Positions 2,364-26,842 of a stretch of 37,592 nt of DNA are shown here, piece after piece. Position 1 is the first letter of the stretch, and the number at the start of each line of letters is the position of its first letter. A model generated the notes under the pieces. That model was not told the origin of the DNA and made no database searches. It worked only from the letters and a program-made list of their open reading frames with translations. The stretch spans positions 1 through 37,592 of the forward strand of contig CAJXVR010000031.1 in the NCBI GenBank assembly GCA_913061285.1. Reading direction: 5' to 3'. Source of the stretch: an uncultured Verrucomicrobiota bacterium (GTDB lineage Bacteria; Verrucomicrobiota; Verrucomicrobiia; Limisphaerales; AAA164-E04). A program made the translations under genes and the position numbers.

Positions 2364-5300
2364 TCACTTAACTCCCGGTTTCGCCTCAAGCAGCAGTTTC
2401 GCCAACGCCTGCTGATTCACAGCGAAGCGAGGCTTCGTGAGTGTCCCCTGAAGAGACAGAAACGAAGGAATGGACTGGAAGCCCGGATGAGATTCAGAGG
2501 GCAAACTGGATGGCAATCCCGCCGTCTCTGCCAGTTGCTTTTCAAAGAAGACCGACACCGGCAATTGAACCACTGTTGACTCCAGTGTTCCCGCAAGCTT
2601 CAGTTCTCCTGTCGACCTCAATTTCAAGAGAGCGGAATCGAGCGCAAGAGCCTCAACCGCAATCCGATGCTTATCAAGGGAAAGCAAAGCATGAATCCGA
2701 TCAAGGTCGAGAGCGTCAAGCGAAGGGAGCTTGAGAGAGCTTAGAATCGGCGTAAACCACAAGACGGATTCGCCTCTCAAAGAAGGAAAGACAGGATTGT
2801 CTAAGGAGGCTTCGAGCCGCCCTTTCAGAGTCGAATCAGCTTCCGAGCGACGATCCCATAAACCGTCGATTTGCGCTCTTATACTTAGGCGCCCACTTGC
2901 GGCATCTTCAGGATCGCCCAATATCACTTGCTGCCACAGATCAATCGGCACATCAGCAAGATCAAGATCGAGAGAAAGCTCCGTCGTTGGAGACGACGCA
3001 CTCAGGTTCGCTACAGCCCCATGAGCTGAGACCGTTCCTCCATTTATCACCGCATCGAACTTATCGACCAAGATCTTGTCATCTTGAATGGCGGATCTAA
3101 GGACAAGGTTGGTGGCCGCGAGTGCATCGAGATAGAACTCTCCGAGCTCGAGATCCACTGACAAGGGACGATCCTCGAGTTCTCGAAGCACGCCGAAATC
3201 GTCTTTTTGAGATCGGTTAACGAGAGGCTCGGTCTCCAAATTTTTCGCCCAACGAATATAAGAAGACAGATCGAGCTTTTTGGCCCTAACCTCAATAGCT
3301 GAGAGTTGATCACTTTCCGAATTGGGAATCGCTATTTCAAATTCGAGTTCATTTTTGACATCGGAAAACATCTCACCTCTCGATAGCGCCACGAGCCCAT
3401 CTTTCAGAGAAAAGCCGGACTCCGCGAAGACGCCGCTCCCTGAAAGCTCAAGATCAAGCGGAACGGTAGCCGTTCCGTCCGCGGAGAGTCCTTGCCATCG
3501 ATCAATCCCTACCTTGCCCGTAACGCGATTCTCGCCGTCTCGATCAACGGCGATCCTACCTTCGCTCCGCAGCACAGCATCACCGACGTGCTCGCTCGCT
3601 ACATAGCTATTTAAGAACTCCTCAAATAAAAACCGATTGATCCCCGTGGCTCGGAAACGAATGTCACCCGTTTCCGATTCCAAATCGTAATTCCCGCTGA
3701 ATCCCAAAGAGCCCGCCGCTGTGTAGCCCTTAATCGCATTAGCATTCAGGCTCTTCAGAGAAACCGCTGATCCATTCACCTTGCTGTCCAACTGAAACTC
3801 GAAGCGATGATCGTCAAAAACCAAGCCCTGATAGCCCCCAACGAGCTCGGAAAAACTTGCATTCAACGTTAGATCATAAGCCAAGCCTCTATTCTGAATG
3901 CGAAGCATAGCATCCAGATCTCCCTCCGATAGATGCAAGCCCCCGATACCAGAACGCTCTACGAGTTTTGAAACTGGGCCTTGAGCAACAACCTGAAAAC
4001 TATAGTTCCCATCATCAAAGGAATAGGCGGCAACGCCATTACCCTCGAGAAGCACCTGTTCATCGTGCAGCCAAGTGTAATTTAGGTCATGGACACTCAA
4101 TCGCTTCAATTCTTCTACGTGCATATCAAAGCTAAGATCGATATCCGTCACCATCGAACGGCCATCCGGCGTCACCACTGTTAAGTCACGCGCCCCGAGC
4201 GTGATTTCCGAGAGAAACTTTTGCCCGTCTCGCTGGATAGTCGTCGTAGCATCGACAGAAAACGTTCCCGGCGGAAGATCAAGTAGGAAAAAGGTCCCCC
4301 ATGCCTCAGCATCAAAGTGTTTCACCGATAGGTCGAAAACCGGTTCCCTTATCCCCGGCCGAGCATCACCCCAACTGATGATCACAGGCGATCCCAGTTT
4401 GCCTGAAAACCAATTCGTCCCTCGGCTGGCCGCTGTGAACTGCAGCTTTTGAATGAGTAAGGTTTCGTCCGGATGATTATATTGAAACGAGTAGTCTCCA
4501 CGCACTTCCGTCTTGGGGGTCCGTACGTCTTCTTTGATGAGTTCTACGGAGTTCCCCTCGATCTTACCTCGCATCGAAAGCACGCTCCCTCCAAAAGCCC
4601 AGTCCGCCGTTCCCTCCGCTCGTAGCACACTCTCTCCAAAATCGATACCTGAGACCGCACCCATAAGATTGAGCAAAGGGCGGGTTAACGGCGTCGTTTC
4701 GATGTCAACGCGCCCCTCACGTTTTGCTGAATCGTAGGGACCGCTAAAAAGAAGCGACCCCAGTAGTTTGTCGTCCCGGCTGAAGCGTACCCCAGATTGA
4801 TTGATTGTCAGCGGGTCGATCGAGAGGTTTAGTTCGCCGACAGCGGTTTCCAGATCCTCAAAATGCCCGGCCGCATTGACAAAACTCAAAGGAAGCTTGA
4901 TGGAAGCTGTCTTCGGAAACCCTGATTCTCGAAGATTGAGCCTAAACTCACCAAGAGACCGCATCGTAACAAATGATTTCTCGTTGCTTTGAAATCGAGT
5001 TTCCGTTTCCAACGCCACCACGCACTCCTGACCTGGTGCAAACGAATCACAGGTGACACTCGCCACGTTTAATTCAATCATGGTCTCGGGACGTTGTTCC
5101 CACGTAAAGCGAACGAGGCAGTCGTGAACCTTGAGGTCTGTAAGTTCAACGCCCCTCAGTGGTAGCCTTGATTTCGGTTTCCTTTTCGAAAACTTCGCCC
5201 AAAGCGCCCCAAAACCACGTTCTCCCTCCCCGCGGTCGACAACTTCAAGCAGCCCCCCTTCCACTGAGACGGATCGTAACGACAAAGATCCCTTCAACCA

Positions 5301-5624
5301 CGCCAAGAGGTCGAATTTCAAATCGAGACGTCGACATTGAAATAAGGCTTTACCGTCCCGATCAACGATCTTGAGATTCGTTCCCGCCAAACCGTCCGCA
5401 CCAACGAGCTGAAACGAATCCGCGGAAACGATCAGCCCATCAGACGATTCCTCAAATGTCCGGAGCAAACGGCGACCAAAGCTCTCTGTCTGGGTATAGG
5501 CAAGTAGCAATAAAAGCAACAGGCTGGCGGAGGCAAAAACAATGAGAATACGCGAGCGTCGCCGCTTAATGACAGGAACATCAAACTCAGGAGATGCGGG
5601 TTGATGAATAAGCCGATCCGACAT
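2364..5624 (-). CDS. AsmA/TamB-like large envelope protein
   Basis: The protein is 1086 residues. It has a basic cytoplasmic N-terminus, a single membrane segment near residues 25-43 (ILIVFASASLLLLLLLAY), and then a very long beta-rich periplasmic region. This architecture is that of AsmA-like/TamB/YhdP proteins, which bridge inner and outer membrane and are implicated in lipid transport or outer-membrane assembly. The final approximately 180 residues contain AsmA-style segments (SLRGESVLWFTP, LKLRSTGELKLAGTLE, LQGTLTKPRF). It starts 5 bp after the hldD stop on the same strand, so it is almost certainly co-transcribed with LPS heptose synthesis, which fits an outer-membrane role. The family call rests on architecture and motif style; the subfamily is uncertain. 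Confidence 0.72.
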   Translation of the reverse strand: MSDRLIHQPASPEFDVPVIKRRRSRILIVFASASLLLLLLLAYTQTESFGRRLLRTFEESSDGLIVSADSFQLVGADGLAGTNLKIVDRDGKALFQCRRLDLKFDLLAWLKGSLSLRSVSVEGGLLEVVDRGEGERGFGALWAKFSKRKPKSRLPLRGVELTDLKVHDCLVRFTWEQRPETMIELNVASVTCDSFAPGQECVVALETETRFQSNEKSFVTMRSLGEFRLNLRESGFPKTASIKLPLSFVNAAGHFEDLETAVGELNLSIDPLTINQSGVRFSRDDKLLGSLLFSGPYDSAKREGRVDIETTPLTRPLLNLMGAVSGIDFGESVLRAEGTADWAFGGSVLSMRGKIEGNSVELIKEDVRTPKTEVRGDYSFQYNHPDETLLIQKLQFTAASRGTNWFSGKLGSPVIISWGDARPGIREPVFDLSVKHFDAEAWGTFFLLDLPPGTFSVDATTTIQRDGQKFLSEITLGARDLTVVTPDGRSMVTDIDLSFDMHVEELKRLSVHDLNYTWLHDEQVLLEGNGVAAYSFDDGNYSFQVVAQGPVSKLVERSGIGGLHLSEGDLDAMLRIQNRGLAYDLTLNASFSELVGGYQGLVFDDHRFEFQLDSKVNGSAVSLKSLNANAIKGYTAAGSLGFSGNYDLESETGDIRFRATGINRFLFEEFLNSYVASEHVGDAVLRSEGRIAVDRDGENRVTGKVGIDRWQGLSADGTATVPLDLELSGSGVFAESGFSLKDGLVALSRGEMFSDVKNELEFEIAIPNSESDQLSAIEVRAKKLDLSSYIRWAKNLETEPLVNRSQKDDFGVLRELEDRPLSVDLELGEFYLDALAATNLVLRSAIQDDKILVDKFDAVINGGTVSAHGAVANLSASSPTTELSLDLDLADVPIDLWQQVILGDPEDAASGRLSIRAQIDGLWDRRSEADSTLKGRLEASLDNPVFPSLRGESVLWFTPILSSLKLPSLDALDLDRIHALLSLDKHRIAVEALALDSALLKLRSTGELKLAGTLESTVVQLPVSVFFEKQLAETAGLPSSLPSESHPGFQSIPSFLSLQGTLTKPRFAVNQQALAKLLLEAKPGVK

Positions 5625-5629
5625 AAGAA

Positions 5630-6553
5630 CTAAGCTCCCTGCAGCGATCTCACGTAGTCAGCAATGCCCTCTCGAGGTTGCCACGTTGGAGAAAAACCCA
5701 AGTCCCGTTGCGTCCGTGTCATATCCGCCTCAGTATGTGGCTGGTAGAACGAATACGGATTCTCAATGTATTCGGGCTCAAGAGCGGTCCCGAGAGCCTC
5801 GTTTAGTGCTTCAATCACTTCATTGAAAGAAAACGGCACCCCGCTCCCACAATTGTAGACACCGCTTGACGGCGCTTCGACGGCTCGGATCGTAAGATCA
5901 ACCACGTCCTTCACCGACACGAAGTCACGTTTTTGCTCACCGCCCACAAAGACTCGAGGGCGTTTTCCGGCGATCATCTGACAATAGAGTTGGTAAATCA
6001 TACTGGCTGCAGCCAACTTATGGGCTTCGTTCATGCCATAGACATTGAAATACCTTACCCCCACAATTTTCCAAGCTAGGTTGTTCTGGGCATAGGCACG
6101 GGCCAAATTGTCCAACTGAACTTTGCTAAAAGCGTAGATATTGGCAGGAGCCGGAGTCATGTCCTCCTGCATCAAGGTCCGCTCAGTACCATAAGTCGCC
6201 GCTGAAGAAGCGTATACAACCGGCGTTTGATGAATGACGGCATAGTCCAACACCCTCCGAAACCCCTCGACGTTGTCATGCACTTGGAGCTGTTGATCAT
6301 GAATCGTCGTGTCCGTGATCGAGGCCTCATGAAAAATCGCATCAAAAGTAAGGTCTGAAAATTTCTCAGAGAGATCTAGCCGAGACACATCGGCAGAAAC
6401 AAAATCGCCACGGTAGGTTTCCAAATTCTTAAAATCTCCGGACCGGAAATCGTCAACCACCACAATTCGAGCCTCAGGATATTTTCTCTGCAATGCCAAG
6501 ACTAGATTCGATCCAATGAATCCAGCGCCTCCTGTCACCAAAATATTCTTCAT
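5630..6553 (-). CDS. hldD: ADP-L-glycero-D-manno-heptose 6-epimerase
   Basis: This is an NAD(P)-dependent short-chain dehydrogenase/epimerase that makes ADP-L-glycero-D-manno-heptose for the LPS inner core. The 307-residue protein has the Rossmann motif TGGAGFIGSN (residues 7-16), SSAATYG (116-122) and the catalytic pair Y140/K144 in YAFSK, the same positions I recall for E. coli HldD. Family signatures FNVYG, KRDFVSVKDV and the C-terminal YIENPYSFYQPHTEADM are present, which separate it from UDP-glucose 4-epimerases. It indicates a Gram-negative cell with heptose-containing LPS. It heads a minus-strand run with the AsmA-like gene (5 bp gap). Its leader contains a small hairpin next to the start codon. 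Confidence 0.92.
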   Translation of the reverse strand: MKNILVTGGAGFIGSNLVLALQRKYPEARIVVVDDFRSGDFKNLETYRGDFVSADVSRLDLSEKFSDLTFDAIFHEASITDTTIHDQQLQVHDNVEGFRRVLDYAVIHQTPVVYASSAATYGTERTLMQEDMTPAPANIYAFSKVQLDNLARAYAQNNLAWKIVGVRYFNVYGMNEAHKLAAASMIYQLYCQMIAGKRPRVFVGGEQKRDFVSVKDVVDLTIRAVEAPSSGVYNCGSGVPFSFNEVIEALNEALGTALEPEYIENPYSFYQPHTEADMTRTQRDLGFSPTWQPREGIADYVRSLQGA

Positions 6554-6798
6554 TTCGTTGCTGTTAACACAGCAGTGACAAAACCCTACTAGACCACGTC
6601 TCCAAAAGCCATGCCAAACATTCCCGTTTCCTCCATTGGTTCATTTCCTGCTACTGTGAATTTACAAAGAACGATTCTTAAGATTTGCAAGAGATAAAAG
6701 ACAAACTACGGCCCCAGTCTCAAGACCAACGGCAACCGTCCCTTTTTGCGGTCGAAGGTTGTTACCTCCCCCAAAAGCGCCTATCCTGCCCACATTCA
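6554..6798. promoter_or_regulatory. Divergent promoter region hldD / FecR-barrel gene, with start-proximal hairpin
   Basis: This 245-bp region separates two divergent genes and must hold promoters for both. A perfect 6-bp inverted repeat (TGCTGT-TAAC-ACAGCA, 6559-6574) lies 5 bp upstream of the hldD ATG, where an RNA hairpin could affect ribosome access. The ORF track extends the plus-strand gene back to a TTG at 6685. I prefer the ATG at 6799, so the right half would be leader. No convincing -35/-10 pair was identified. Confidence 0.4.
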
Positions 6799-9700
6799 AT
6801 GAAACAAGAAAGCTCAAGGCCCCTAGTTTTCACCCATTTACGTGGCTCATTCCCACGTCTTTGGGCATTTGTGATCGTCTCCTTACTCTTCTGGACCCTC
6901 AATCACAACCAAACAACAGCCGCAGTCCCGGGGGAATCTGAGGACCCAAGCCGCATTCTAACACTCACGGGACGCGTCGAAATCTCACGCAACAACGGAA
7001 CCAATTGGTCCGCCGGAAGGACAAATATGGTTCTCAATATCGGCAATCGAGTCAGGACGGGACGACGCAGCCGAGCCACCATTCAAATGACTGACAAGAG
7101 TGTTCTCCGCGTGAGACAGCTCTCCACCCTTGTCATTCAAGCCCCTCGAACCACCTCAGAGAAGCCAGTACTCGATCTAAAATCCGGCTCCAGCTATTTC
7201 TTCAGTCGTGAAAGTCCCACTGAAGTGAAGTTCCGCACTCCCCTTACCTCGGGAGCCATTCGCGGCACTGAATTTGAGCTCAGTGTCGCAGAGAACGGAG
7301 AAACGGAAGTCACGATGCTCGACGGTGAGGTACAGCTTGAGAATGAATTTGGTGAGGAAACCATCGTAAGCGGCGAAAAAGGCATCGTCACAGCCGGAGC
7401 AAAACCAAGGAAGACTCCAATTATTAACGCTCGAAACGCCATTCAATGGACCCTCTACTATCCGGGTATCCTCAGCATCGAAGACCTTTCCCTCACCGAG
7501 AATGACCGGCTCCTCCTACAATCAAGTCTCACGGCCTACAAACGAGGCGATCTGGTTGGTGCGCTTGAGCAGCTTCCCTCAAACGAAGCCTACACGTCTT
7601 TCTCAGGTCAATTCTTTGCCGCCATCGCCGAATTATCAGCGGGTAACCTTACTCCTTCGGAAACACTCCTCTCAACACCGACCGATGCCCCTTCCGACGC
7701 AGAACTGATCGCAACGCTGCAGGTATTCCTTTCGGCAATCAGAAACCCCGACGACTCCAGACCTATCGCATCTCCCTCAACGGCTAGCCATTGGCTCGCA
7801 CACTCATACCTCAGACAAGCCAAACACGATCTTGACGCCGCCAAGGAAGCCGTCACTGCAAGTTTAGATTTGGCGCCTTCGTTTGGTTTTGCGTGGGTGA
7901 GGCTTGCTGAATTGGAATTCGGGGAGGGCAACCTTCAGGCCGCTGAAGCAGCACTGCTCAAAGCACAAGAACTTTCCCCTGAAAATGCACAGCTCTATAC
8001 CCTTAAAGGGTTTATTGCCCTCGGAGCAGGCGCCACCCGACGAGCTGATGAGTCCTTCATTCAGGCAAGTCAAATTGACGGATCTCTGGGGAGCGCCTGG
8101 CTGGGACGCGGCTTGGTCCACATCAAAGAGGGGCGAAACAAAGAGGGGCGTTTAGCCCTTCAGACAGCGGCGATCCTGGAACCACAACGAGCCCTCTTCC
8201 GCAGTTATCTCGGGAAAGCCTATAGCAATGAACATCTCAACGAGCTTGCCCTACGCGATCTTGACCGCGCACGAACGCTCGATCCCGATGACCCGACAGC
8301 ATGGCTTTACTCATCACTCATTCGGAAAGAACAGAATCAGATCAACGAAGCTGTATCCGATCTCCAGGCGTCTCAGCGTTTGAACGACAATCGAGGTTTG
8401 TTCCGTTCCCGACTTCTCTTGGATCAAGACCAGGCCGTTCGTGCTGCAAACTTGGCTAGCATCTATCGAGACGCGGGAATGACTGAGCTCAGTCGACGCG
8501 AAGCTTCCCGTGCCGTTGATTTCGATATCACCAGTGCTTCAGCGCATCTTTTCCTCGCCAATAGCTACGATACTTTGAGGGACCCCAAACAGCTCAATCT
8601 TCGCTATGAAACGCCCTGGGCGAGCGAGCTTTTTCTTGCCAACCTCCTGGCTCCCGTAGGCGCCGCCCCGCTCTCTCAGAACGTTTCTCAACACGAGTAT
8701 TCTCGCCTCTTCGAACGATCCGGATTTGGTCTCAGTTCAAATACGGAGTATTTTAGCAACGGCGACTGGCAGCAGACAGCCTCCCAATTCGGCACCTTCG
8801 ACGAGCTCAGCTACTCCTTGGACGTCGACTATCGCACCGAACTCGGCCAACGACCGAACAATGATTTCGAACGCTTCTCAGTTTGGGCAAAAGCAAAACT
8901 CAAACTCACGGAACAGGACAGTCTGCTCATCCAAACCGTCTACTCCGACTACGAATCAGGCGATGTGGCACAGTACTATGATCAAAGCACTGCTAGCACA
9001 ACCCAGCGAGTCGAAGAGGTCCAAGAACCGCTCCTCTTCGTCGGCTATCACCGAGAATGGCACCCAGGAAGTCACCCCCTCTTTCTGGCAAGCCGATTCG
9101 ACGACACGCTGACACGAACTGACCCCGCAGCTGTGGTCACCACACTCAACAAGAATGCCGCAGGAACCGTCACCGGCATCACACCACTCCTGTTCGACCT
9201 CGACTACCGCCGTGACCTTGAAGGCTACTCTACTGAATTGCAGCATCTGCTAAAAACTGGTTCCCATTCAGTCGTCGTTGGATCTCGCTACCAATGGGCA
9301 GATGTCGACTCAAGTGCTTCCCTCGGAAGAAGCCCTATAGCCTTCCCCCCAATCTTTGCTAATCCCCCATCCGATCAGTCCTTCGATCAATCTCTCGACC
9401 GTTTCAGCGCCTACGCTTACTACGGTTGGGATATTCTCAGCAATCTTCAGGTATGGGGCGGCGTCAGCTATGATCACTTGGATTTCCCAACAAATAGTGA
9501 GATCCCCCCTCTCACCGACGATCAATCCTCTGAATCACAGGTCTCTCCTAAGCTGGGCTTTCGATTAGAGCCTTGGACTGACTCCAATATCAGAGGCATT
9601 TACACCCAATCCCTTGGTGGTGTGTTTTTCGATAACAGCATCCGACTTGAGCCCACACAATTCGGGGGATTCAATCACGCCTTCCGGAGCATTATTCCCG

Positions 9701-17233: not shown

Positions 17234-18613
17234 TTATTGAAGCCCTTCTAGTAGAGACAGCGAGGCACCAAAGTAGCGGATTGAAGCCCCACCTCCGAAT
17301 GCCTCAGCAACAACTTTGATCGAATCACCCGCAGTCGTCGTGAGCGGAACGCTAAACCAAGGATTCAGCGGCACAGCAAACGGAGGCCCATAATCAACGG
17401 TAAGGACCGTCACCCCTGCTCTCTCAATATGAAGCGATAGGCGCTCTAAGGTCCCACCGGCCTGGCGCACAAATCCACCGACTGGATTCGTCGAAGGTGG
17501 TCCGAAACTGAGCAAGCCAACCCCTGAATCGGCAGCCGTAATCTCCACCAAGAGTTTTGGAGAATCGCCTCCAAAAATCGTTTTGAATCCATCCGGATGA
17601 TCAGACAGAAAGGTCAACGATCCGGCAGAGCCTTGAGGGCCTACAGGCCCGGCCTCGCCTTGCGGCCCAGTTGGGCCAGCAGGGCCTACAGCTCCATCAG
17701 AACCCGCATCACCTTGTGGCCCGGCGGGCCCGGCAGGACCAGCTTCGCCGGTCGCCCCTGGCAATCCTTGAGGTCCCTGGGGACCAGCCTCGCCTTGCGG
17801 TCCAGTTGGGCCGGCGGGGCCTACAGCTCCATCAGTCCCCGCAACACCCTGGGGTCCGGCAGGACCAGCTTCGCCTGTCGCTCCAGGTAATCCTTGCGGT
17901 CCCTGGGGACCAGCCTCGCCTCGCGGCCCAGTTGGGCCAGCAGGGCCTACAGCTCCATCAGAACCCGCATCACCCTGGGGTCCGGCGGGACCGGCTTCTC
18001 CAGTCGTCCCTGGTAATCCTTGAGGTCCCTGTGGGCCAGACTCGCCTTGCGGCCCAGCTGGGCCGGCGGGGCCAACAGCTCCATCAGAACCGGCATCACC
18101 TTGTGGTCCGGCGGGACCGGTAGGGCCGGCTTCGCCGGTCGTACCGGGAAACCCTCGAAGCCCTCTCCTCCCTCGAGGTCCAGGCGGCCCTACCTCGCCA
18201 AATGTCAATACAAAGGTATCGGCTCGGCCTCTCCCTTTGCCAGTCACCGACAGAAGATAATTCCCTATGAGTTCCTCCGGAGAGAGTGGAAAATCGACGA
18301 TCAGTGAATATTTCTCATCAGCGAACCGCAATACTGGCAACTGTTGCACGTCACCTTCTGGGAGAAACAACGAGACAACAAACTCGTCCGCTCTTGTTTT
18401 GCGGTTCTTGACGAAGTTGATGCCGCCTATGACACCAATGGGCCGTCCCTCAGAATTCGTTTCGAGCACGAAACTGGTTATCACGAGAGGTCGGCCTCCA
18501 ACCGCCTGTTCTTCATCATCGGCGGAAGCGAGCCCAAGAACTAAGCTCGCCCCAATTCCAACTAGCCCCCAAAGACGCAGGGGCCCAAAGGGTTTTAGCC
18601 AACGCAGATTCAT
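17234..18613 (-). CDS. Secreted collagen-like (Gly-X-Y) protein
   Basis: From the ATG at 18613 the protein is 459 residues. It has a signal peptide (core [18 protein letters not shown]), an approximately 100-residue beta-rich N-domain ([12 protein letters not shown] to VLTFGEVG), about 63 uninterrupted Gly-X-Y triplets beginning [10 protein letters not shown], and a 125-residue C-terminal domain ([12 protein letters not shown] to LSLLEGLQ). That last domain could be a trimerising beta-jelly-roll like those capping other bacterial collagens. The triplets are rich in Pro, Gln, Ala, Glu and Asp and are predicted to form a triple helix. The protein is probably exported and surface-exposed or in an appendage. 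The start was chosen because AAGGA lies 9 nt before it, whereas the upstream ATG (18631) lacks a Shine-Dalgarno. No neighbour explains its job. Confidence 0.85.
17618..18190 (-). repeat. Collagen Gly-X-Y region with four tandem 126-135 bp units
   Basis: Residues about 148-338 (full-ORF numbering) are Gly-X-Y triplets. Within them a 42-residue unit beginning G[T/A][14 protein letters not shown] and ending GPQGPQGLP occurs four times. Units 1 and 4 have one extra triplet (45 residues). At DNA level the copies are close enough that recent duplication or copy-number variation is likely, and short-read assembly may have collapsed or expanded units. Confidence 0.9.
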
Positions 18614-18622
18614 CCGATAGGA

Positions 18623-18627
18623 TCCTT
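18623..18627 (-). promoter_or_regulatory. Ribosome binding site deciding the collagen-like gene start
   Basis: On the minus strand AAGGA is followed by 9 nt and the ATG at 18613 (protein [10 protein letters not shown]). This supports 18613 over the upstream ATG at 18631. Confidence 0.55.
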
Positions 18628-18908
18628 TCATTTTCGTCTCAACAATTATCCACTCATCGGGCTAGCGCTAAAGAACGAGGAAAGGAGCGAATCGAGTCCG
18701 ATCTCTGGGAAAATTCTTCCCCTCAATTGATCTCGTGGACTCACTCACTGCCGTTCTTTGCAACAAATGCCCCAAATTACACCATAAAATGGGCTGTTTT
18801 GCCTCAAAGCAGGAAACGTGCACAGGAAGGCGAAGAACTGAGGAAGGCCGAAAGCGGGTTTGGGGGAGGAAAGAACGGTAGACCTCCCCCACCCCAGCTT
18901 CCTAGGGC

Positions 18909-25802: not shown

Positions 25803-25835
25803 TTGATAAAAACATTTATTTTCAATACATGTTTT
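25803..25835 (+). promoter_or_regulatory. Candidate promoter/operator of the globin-cytochrome operon
   Basis: TTGATA (25803-25808) is followed after 17 nt by a weak -10-like TACATG. Overlapping this is a dyad AAAACAT-N13-ATGTTTT (25809-25815 and 25829-25835), the kind of symmetry used by dimeric regulators. This is read from sequence only. Confidence 0.35.
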
Positions 25836-25869: not shown

Positions 25870-26349
25870 ATGAAAATCATGATGAGAACCTTCCTACTCT
25901 TCCTATTGGCACTCTCCTTTTGCAACACTCACGTCCTTCGAGCCGAAGACACAAAAGCGCGGAAGGTCGATCCTAAGAGCATCTATCACCGTCTCGGAGG
26001 GCAGGCGGCAATTGATGCAGCGGTTGACCTCTTCTATACAAAGGTCTTAGCCGATGAACGCGTGAACCATTTCTTTGAAGACGTGAATATGAAGCGTCAA
26101 ATCAAGCGCCAGAAGGCTTTCTTGAGCGCTGCCTTCGGCGGGCCGACTCCCTACACCGGCAAAACACTTCGTAAGGCTCACGCCGATCTCGATCTCAAGG
26201 AAAGTGACTTCGGAGCGATTGCCGGTCATCTACAAGCAACGCTTACCGAACTGAAGATTGACAAGGAACTCATTCAAGAAGTCATGGCAGTAGCGGCATC
26301 AACCAAGAACGCGGTGCTGAATCGTCCGGAAGCGAAGGCAACCCACTAG
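25870..26349 (+). CDS. Exported truncated haemoglobin (group I-like)
   Basis: The 159-residue protein has a signal peptide (MRTFLLFLLALSFCNTHVLRA, cut near residue 25) and a 2-on-2 globin domain. The start YHRLGGQAAIDAAVDLFYTKVL carries the B9-B10 Phe-Tyr pair (F55/Y56). VNHFFEDVNMKRQIKRQKAFLSAAFGGP follows, and the proximal heme histidine is in KAHADL (H104). Tyr at B10 is typical of O2/NO-reactive truncated haemoglobins, which usually detoxify NO or bind O2. Most are cytosolic; export would put this one in the periplasm, where the next gene (44 bp downstream) encodes a c-type cytochrome that could supply electrons. Lipoprotein anchoring is unlikely because the Cys18 context (LSFC) is not a lipobox. 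Confidence 0.88.
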   Translation: MKIMMRTFLLFLLALSFCNTHVLRAEDTKARKVDPKSIYHRLGGQAAIDAAVDLFYTKVLADERVNHFFEDVNMKRQIKRQKAFLSAAFGGPTPYTGKTLRKAHADLDLKESDFGAIAGHLQATLTELKIDKELIQEVMAVAASTKNAVLNRPEAKATH

Positions 26350-26392
26350 TCAACCCGCCTACGACGCATCGAAACTCAGCGCAATTCTAGCT

Positions 26393-26842
26393 ATGAAACG
26401 TCTTCTCGTTACCGCAGTGCTAGCGTCCATGGTAGGATCCACAGAAACCTCGGCCAATGAGGATATCGACTTCGGCCGCCAGGTTTATCCTATTCTACGG
26501 GATCACTGTCTCCGTTGCCACGGCCCCACCTACACAGATGCCAAGTCCGGACGCCGTAAGAAACCCAAAGGGGGCCTACGTTTGGACACGATCGCGCATA
26601 TCAAGAAGGGCTATGAGAATGACGACGGAGAAACCAAGGCTCTCATAGTCGCGGGAGAACCTCAGAAGAGTCCCCTTTACACCACTACCGCGCTCCCCGC
26701 TGAGCACGATGATATCATGCCAGCCTCGGGAGACCCTCTCAGCAAAGAACAGCAAGCGCTGATTCAACGCTGGATCCGTGAGGGCGCAACGTTTGGACTG
26801 TTCAAGGCCCCCGATTATCTTAACCCCAAAGCGAAAAAGTAG
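26393..26842 (+). CDS. PSCyt1-type cytochrome c protein
   Basis: This 149-residue exported protein carries the planctomycete cytochrome C (PSCyt1, PF07635-like) domain. A short signal sequence (LLVTAVLASMVGSTETSA) precedes FGRQVYPILRDHCLRCHGP, with the heme-binding CLRCH (C39, C42, H43). Conserved GGLRLDT, IVAGEPQKSPLY and DDIMPASGDPLS (possible distal Met) follow, ending in IQRWIREGATF. In Planctomycetes and Verrucomicrobia this domain normally sits at the N-terminus of large PSD1-associated proteins; here it is alone. It follows the exported globin by 44 bp in the same direction, suggesting a periplasmic redox pair. Confidence 0.88.
   Translation: MKRLLVTAVLASMVGSTETSANEDIDFGRQVYPILRDHCLRCHGPTYTDAKSGRRKKPKGGLRLDTIAHIKKGYENDDGETKALIVAGEPQKSPLYTTTALPAEHDDIMPASGDPLSKEQQALIQRWIREGATFGLFKAPDYLNPKAKK

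Follow-up and report, generated by a model that had tools for sequence, protein, structure and literature searches.

A truncated haemoglobin that carries an export signal, and is followed by the gene for a small exported c-type cytochrome, raises the question of what such a pair does in the cell envelope and what controls it. The locus lies in a 37,592-nucleotide stretch of DNA (the window) from the draft genome of an uncultured Verrucomicrobiota bacterium. A first-pass annotation had described an exported truncated haemoglobin paired with a PSCyt1 cytochrome. Both open reading frames were confirmed, on the + strand and with 43 bp between the globin and the cytochrome gene. The features of the locus are listed here.

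25810–25834, no strand assigned: NsrR-box-like palindrome AAACATTTATTTTCAATACATGTTT; its core, 25814–25830, fits ATGYATTTNAAATRCAT at 15/17 positions
25870–26349, + strand: exported group 1 truncated haemoglobin, 159 aa (Pfam PF01152 Bac_globin, E=1.3e-20; structure matches 1dly and 1idr)
25870–25944, + strand: likely signal peptide of the globin, cleavage after VLRA (hydrophobic N-terminus, judged from sequence)
26035–26037, + strand: Tyr56, TyrB10 of the globin haem pocket (alignment with 1dly; invariant or nearly so in homologues)
26098–26112, + strand: Gln77 (E7) to Gln81 (E11) of the globin haem pocket (1dly and homologue alignments)
26179–26181, + strand: His104, the proximal HisF8 of the globin (1dly and homologue alignments)
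26393–26842, + strand: exported single-haem PSCyt1 cytochrome, 149 aa (Pfam PF07635, 26.4 bits; curated cut-off 22)
26507–26521, + strand: haem c attachment motif CLRCH (from sequence; C39, C42 and H43 invariant)
26717–26719, + strand: Met109, likely second axial ligand of haem c (invariant in 16 relatives)

Elsewhere in the window, 17234–18631 on the − strand encodes a 465-residue protein with many collagen-like repeats (Pfam Collagen, E=2.9e-31).

An exported group 1 globin and its relatives

The window globin covers positions 1 to 120 of the 121-position Bac_globin profile, which is the full domain. A profile search of the 8.0-Mb draft source genome gave no other Bac_globin match. Among solved structures, those nearest to it are group 1 truncated haemoglobins (1dly, E=1.8e-28), and an AlphaFold model of the protein superposes on 1dly with a TM-score of 0.94 (by target) at 1.0 Å. 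The haem pocket set Tyr56/Gln77/Gln81/His104 (B10/E7/E11/F8) is intact and conserved across homologue alignments. The protein has the attributes of a group 1 globin: a 2-on-2 fold (in the model), TyrB10, Gln at E7 and E11, and HisF8. It shares this fold and the Tyr/Gln/Gln/His pocket with Mycobacterium tuberculosis HbN and Chlamydomonas LI637. To our knowledge, neither of those globins has both a bacterial export signal and a cytochrome gene next to it, and neither has an NsrR box.

The signal peptides annotated on both proteins were borne out when the N-termini were read by eye. In the globin, cleavage would fall between MKIMMRTFLLFLLALSFCNTHVLRA and ED, and the globin domain begins at residue 37. 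In the cytochrome, cleavage would fall between MKRLLVTAVLASMVGSTETSA and NE. The signal-then-globin layout is common to the exported homologues of the globin. Genome searches and the neighbourhoods of the matches gave a comparison set of 45 distinct homologous loci, 39 judged exported and 6 apparently cytosolic. Export was called by a simple rule (a hydrophobic signal or a lipobox) in 36 loci and by eye in three (L047, L121, L134), whose N-termini are truncated or ambiguous but whose architecture is that of the exported homologues. By these calls, export appears to be the rule for the clade of the window globin. Since the loci are related, counts of loci overstate independent support.

Most exported homologues carry an N-terminal CPISGKPxxPxxxVxYEGKxYxF segment, a degenerate YHS-like domain; Pfam scores for YHS are at or just below the cut-off in some relatives, and others give none. 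The domain is absent from the window globin and from L043, L033 and L124, and these four form a subclade in the tree (support 98/94). The window globin thus differs from the exported YHS-like-globin proteins of Verrucomicrobiota in belonging to a four-member subclade without that domain, while sharing with them the globin clade, export, an NsrR box and linkage to nsrR (see below). Exported or lipoprotein YHS-like globins are widespread in Verrucomicrobiota (L004–L016, L034–L041, L117–L134). A literature search, with most subscription journals outside its coverage, found no published description of exported or YHS-fused globins. Other globin loci were seen in the same searches. L026–L031, from the same order, hold a second distinct globin family with lipoprotein-like N-termini and frames of about 240–265 aa. 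In L021 (1438–3363) and L022 (1471–3363) a globin domain is joined to PAS domains, and L021 also has an MCP signalling domain; both are globin-coupled sensors. L039, a record titled Akkermansia muciniphila, has a globin locus near-identical to those of the Opitutae/Opitutales MAG records L038, L040 and L041, and is probably misnamed.

Predicted NsrR-type control

The strongest clue to the role of the globin, absent from the first-pass annotation, is the palindrome directly upstream of its start, taken together with the regulators linked to its relatives. The palindrome is a putative NsrR site, for which the published consensus is gATGyAT-N5-ATrCATc (PMC1274295). A scan of the window at up to 3 mismatches returned the palindrome as the single match, with 0.34 expected by chance. 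A pattern drawn from the window site was then scanned against the 8.0-Mb genome. It occurs at one other place with at most 1 mismatch, and a reversed-pattern control gave 0 matches. This second palindrome lies 166 bp upstream of an nsrR-like gene on contig C311.

The C311 gene (9117–9551) is the one close nsrR homologue in the source genome and encodes an Rrf2 protein with Asp8 and three cysteines. Among NCBIfam models, NsrR fits this protein best (E=2.3e-45), with a score of 154 bits that falls below the curated cut-off of 182. The contig end near this gene (L063, 9776–9824), which we take to be Illumina Nextera adapter sequence, hides whatever lies beyond the nsrR box. That the window contig and C311 come from one organism is an assumption, since the draft genome is of mixed quality. 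The genome is roughly 89% complete and measures 8.0 Mb, against 4.8–4.9 Mb in same-genus genomes without the globin, and a mixed assembly is possible. Genome searches of the same-genus genomes found neither the globin nor an nsrR-like gene.

The box was also scored across all loci with a motif taken from the published consensus and not fitted to the scanned loci. There are 21 strong boxes (score ≥14) in 524 kb. Of these, 17 stand no more than 300 bp upstream of a globin start, an enrichment of about 160-fold; the 17 are spread over 15 loci. Two of the remaining four precede linked nsrR genes (L124, L131) and two lie elsewhere. The L124 box stands before a same-strand nsrR–globin pair. Tested by dinucleotide shuffling, boxes reached p<0.01 in 13 of 36 exported loci. 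The locus in genome G121, which also has the cytochrome (see below), has a box at 16/17; this draft genome gave no NsrR match at E≤1e-15.

An Rrf2 regulator adjoins the globin in many relatives. An nsrR-like gene with Asp8 and three cysteines lies within about 1 kb of the globin in 24 of the 39 exported homologues and in none of the 6 cytosolic ones, and the same residues are found in the homologue of the window genome. In 13 of the 39 exported homologues there is neither a linked nsrR nor a box with a score of at least 13. Of the 26 regulators examined, 25 have Asp8; the remaining one is a different Rrf2 protein that lacks the cysteines (the Rrf2 match in L034 was classed as a different Rrf2 protein). 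Asp8 is the fourth cluster ligand of NsrR (PMC5411485; PMC10510648), and position 8 of RirA is Asn (PMC10510648). RirA as the regulator is therefore disfavoured. For the L038 regulator, the RirA model scores slightly above the NsrR model.

At the level of sequence, NO-responsive control of the globin is well supported. The NsrR-type boxes before the globin and the nsrR-like gene, and the nsrR-like genes beside 24 of 39 exported homologues, favour NO detoxification as the likely role of the exported globin. The earlier annotation had offered this role alongside a respiratory one for the globin and cytochrome, and for the latter we found no support.

The adjacent cytochrome

The cytochrome matches the PSCyt1 profile above the curated cut-off (E=1.1e-5) and has one CxxCH motif. 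A structure search with its model gave no significant match. It resembles the PSCyt1 proteins of Planctomycetota and Verrucomicrobiota in its CxxCH haem c domain and its invariant Met. Those proteins usually lie in longer frames of about 450–1200 residues, whereas the window cytochrome stands alone at 149 residues. The first-pass annotation had called an isolated PSCyt1 domain unusual. This agrees with most of the 84 PSCyt1 matches in the source genome, which are in long frames, although a few short stand-alone ones exist.

A full-length orthologue of the cytochrome beside a globin was found only in G121 (L032/L043), a genome of a different family. It has 56% identity and follows the globin there, with order and strand as in the window. 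The next best matches to the cytochrome are parts of longer frames. In a comparison of the window with the G121 region, the globin–cytochrome pair is the sole conserved stretch, and the other window genes have no match there. None of the 43 other loci has a full orthologue beside the globin. Exported CxxCH motifs are 1.7-fold more frequent near these globins than in the flanks (7 in 70.5 kb versus 20 in 333.8 kb). A general globin–cytochrome linkage was rejected on this ratio, which is near background. The neighbourhood survey thus upheld export as a property of the homologues, but PSCyt1 linkage recurred only in G121. Other exported haem proteins occur near some relatives: Tll0287-like proteins in L036 and L037, and a 440-residue CxxCH protein in L035. 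The L035 region (around 5001–7500) contains nsrR, the exported globin, this CxxCH protein, which has no Pfam match, and then a second, distant truncated globin.

With linkage confined to G121 and only a 1.7-fold CxxCH excess, a cytochrome relay is a possible lineage-specific addition and not a core component. The electron relay proposed at first pass is plausible in this narrow form, given the ordered pair in G121, and a dedicated cytochrome partner for the globin is plausible in the window lineage. A separate question is whether the globin is an NO-defence gene and the cytochrome a chance neighbour with no shared function. The 84 PSCyt1 matches in the genome, the slight CxxCH excess and the empty count at the 43 other loci all lend weight to chance. 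Against it stands the G121 locus: a genome of another family keeps a full-length orthologue linked in this order and orientation, and the surroundings are otherwise not conserved. We put chance adjacency somewhat short of an even bet. That the cytochrome is the reductant of the globin is, for us, a tentative proposal.

A candidate NO defence in the cell envelope

We consider it probable that the gene pair serves as a defence unit in the cell envelope that responds to NO, since an NsrR-like site lies 5' of an exported globin and a small exported cytochrome lies 3'. In the proposed mechanism, an NsrR repressor would occupy the palindrome at 25810–25834. NO would damage the iron–sulphur cluster of NsrR, and the resulting derepression would lead to synthesis and export of the globin and the cytochrome. 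The oxy-ferrous globin would most likely convert NO to nitrate, as an NO dioxygenase, outside the inner membrane. This would shield the respiratory chain and the cytosol from NO. NAD(P)H reductases cannot reach an exported globin, so its re-reduction would have to come from periplasmic electron carriers. In the window lineage, the adjacent PSCyt1 cytochrome may act as the electron donor.

A similar arrangement is known from Legionella pneumophila, where glbN-lpg2536 (a cyanoglobin and a ferredoxin reductase) is the predicted sole NsrR target (PMC1274295; PMC3820574). Both systems have a group 1 type globin, predicted NsrR control and a redox partner, and NO oxidation has been proposed for the Legionella pair. 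The partner there is a ferredoxin reductase, whereas the window globin is exported and its neighbour, in the position that the reductase gene would take, encodes an exported c-type cytochrome.

The pocket residues and the regulation suggest that the globin is likely to carry out NO dioxygenation. Under the same NsrR control, it could instead bind or carry NO, serving as a sink or buffer in the manner of cytochrome c', or take part in NO signalling, without catalytic dioxygenation. The genomic boxes, the nsrR linkage and the 524-kb box scan suit this reading equally. It also draws on an electron donor that is not conserved across the globin family, and on the extra YHS-like domain, of unknown role, in most relatives. 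However, the pocket matches that of group 1 globins that bind oxygen, HbN among them, and stoichiometric scavenging is inefficient, which makes a non-catalytic role unlikely. Quite improbable is a role in respiration, in which the globin would deliver or store oxygen, the cytochrome would be its respiratory partner and the linked Rrf2 regulator would sense iron, redox or cluster status and not NO. For some linked regulators the RirA and NsrR models have similar scores, and the source genome has haem-copper oxidases, but 25 of 26 regulators carry Asp8 where RirA has Asn, the box agrees with the NsrR consensus, and oxidase genes are absent among the neighbours read.

A haem-copper NO reductase was rejected as a candidate, since the roughly 89% complete genome has only three COX1-family matches, with no clear NorB among them: two are strong, and the third is a divergent gene with a CcoO-like gene after it. 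In the divergent gene (L179, 1399–2997; G000:C8), the usual CcoN histidine stretch is presumably missing.

NO dioxygenation by the exported globin remains the reading we favour. Its most specific form is a verrucomicrobial periplasmic NO dioxygenase in which an NsrR-controlled globin takes respiratory electrons from the cytochrome c pool, via a dedicated small cytochrome, and not from NAD(P)H. In all these particulars together it is doubtful. Cytosolic reductases are out of reach for an exported globin, and this globin family therefore makes testable the open question of how single-domain globins are re-reduced. The locus and its relatives would extend NsrR-type control to Verrucomicrobiota, and they point to an NO defence at the level of the envelope, an unusual place for it, in these bacteria.
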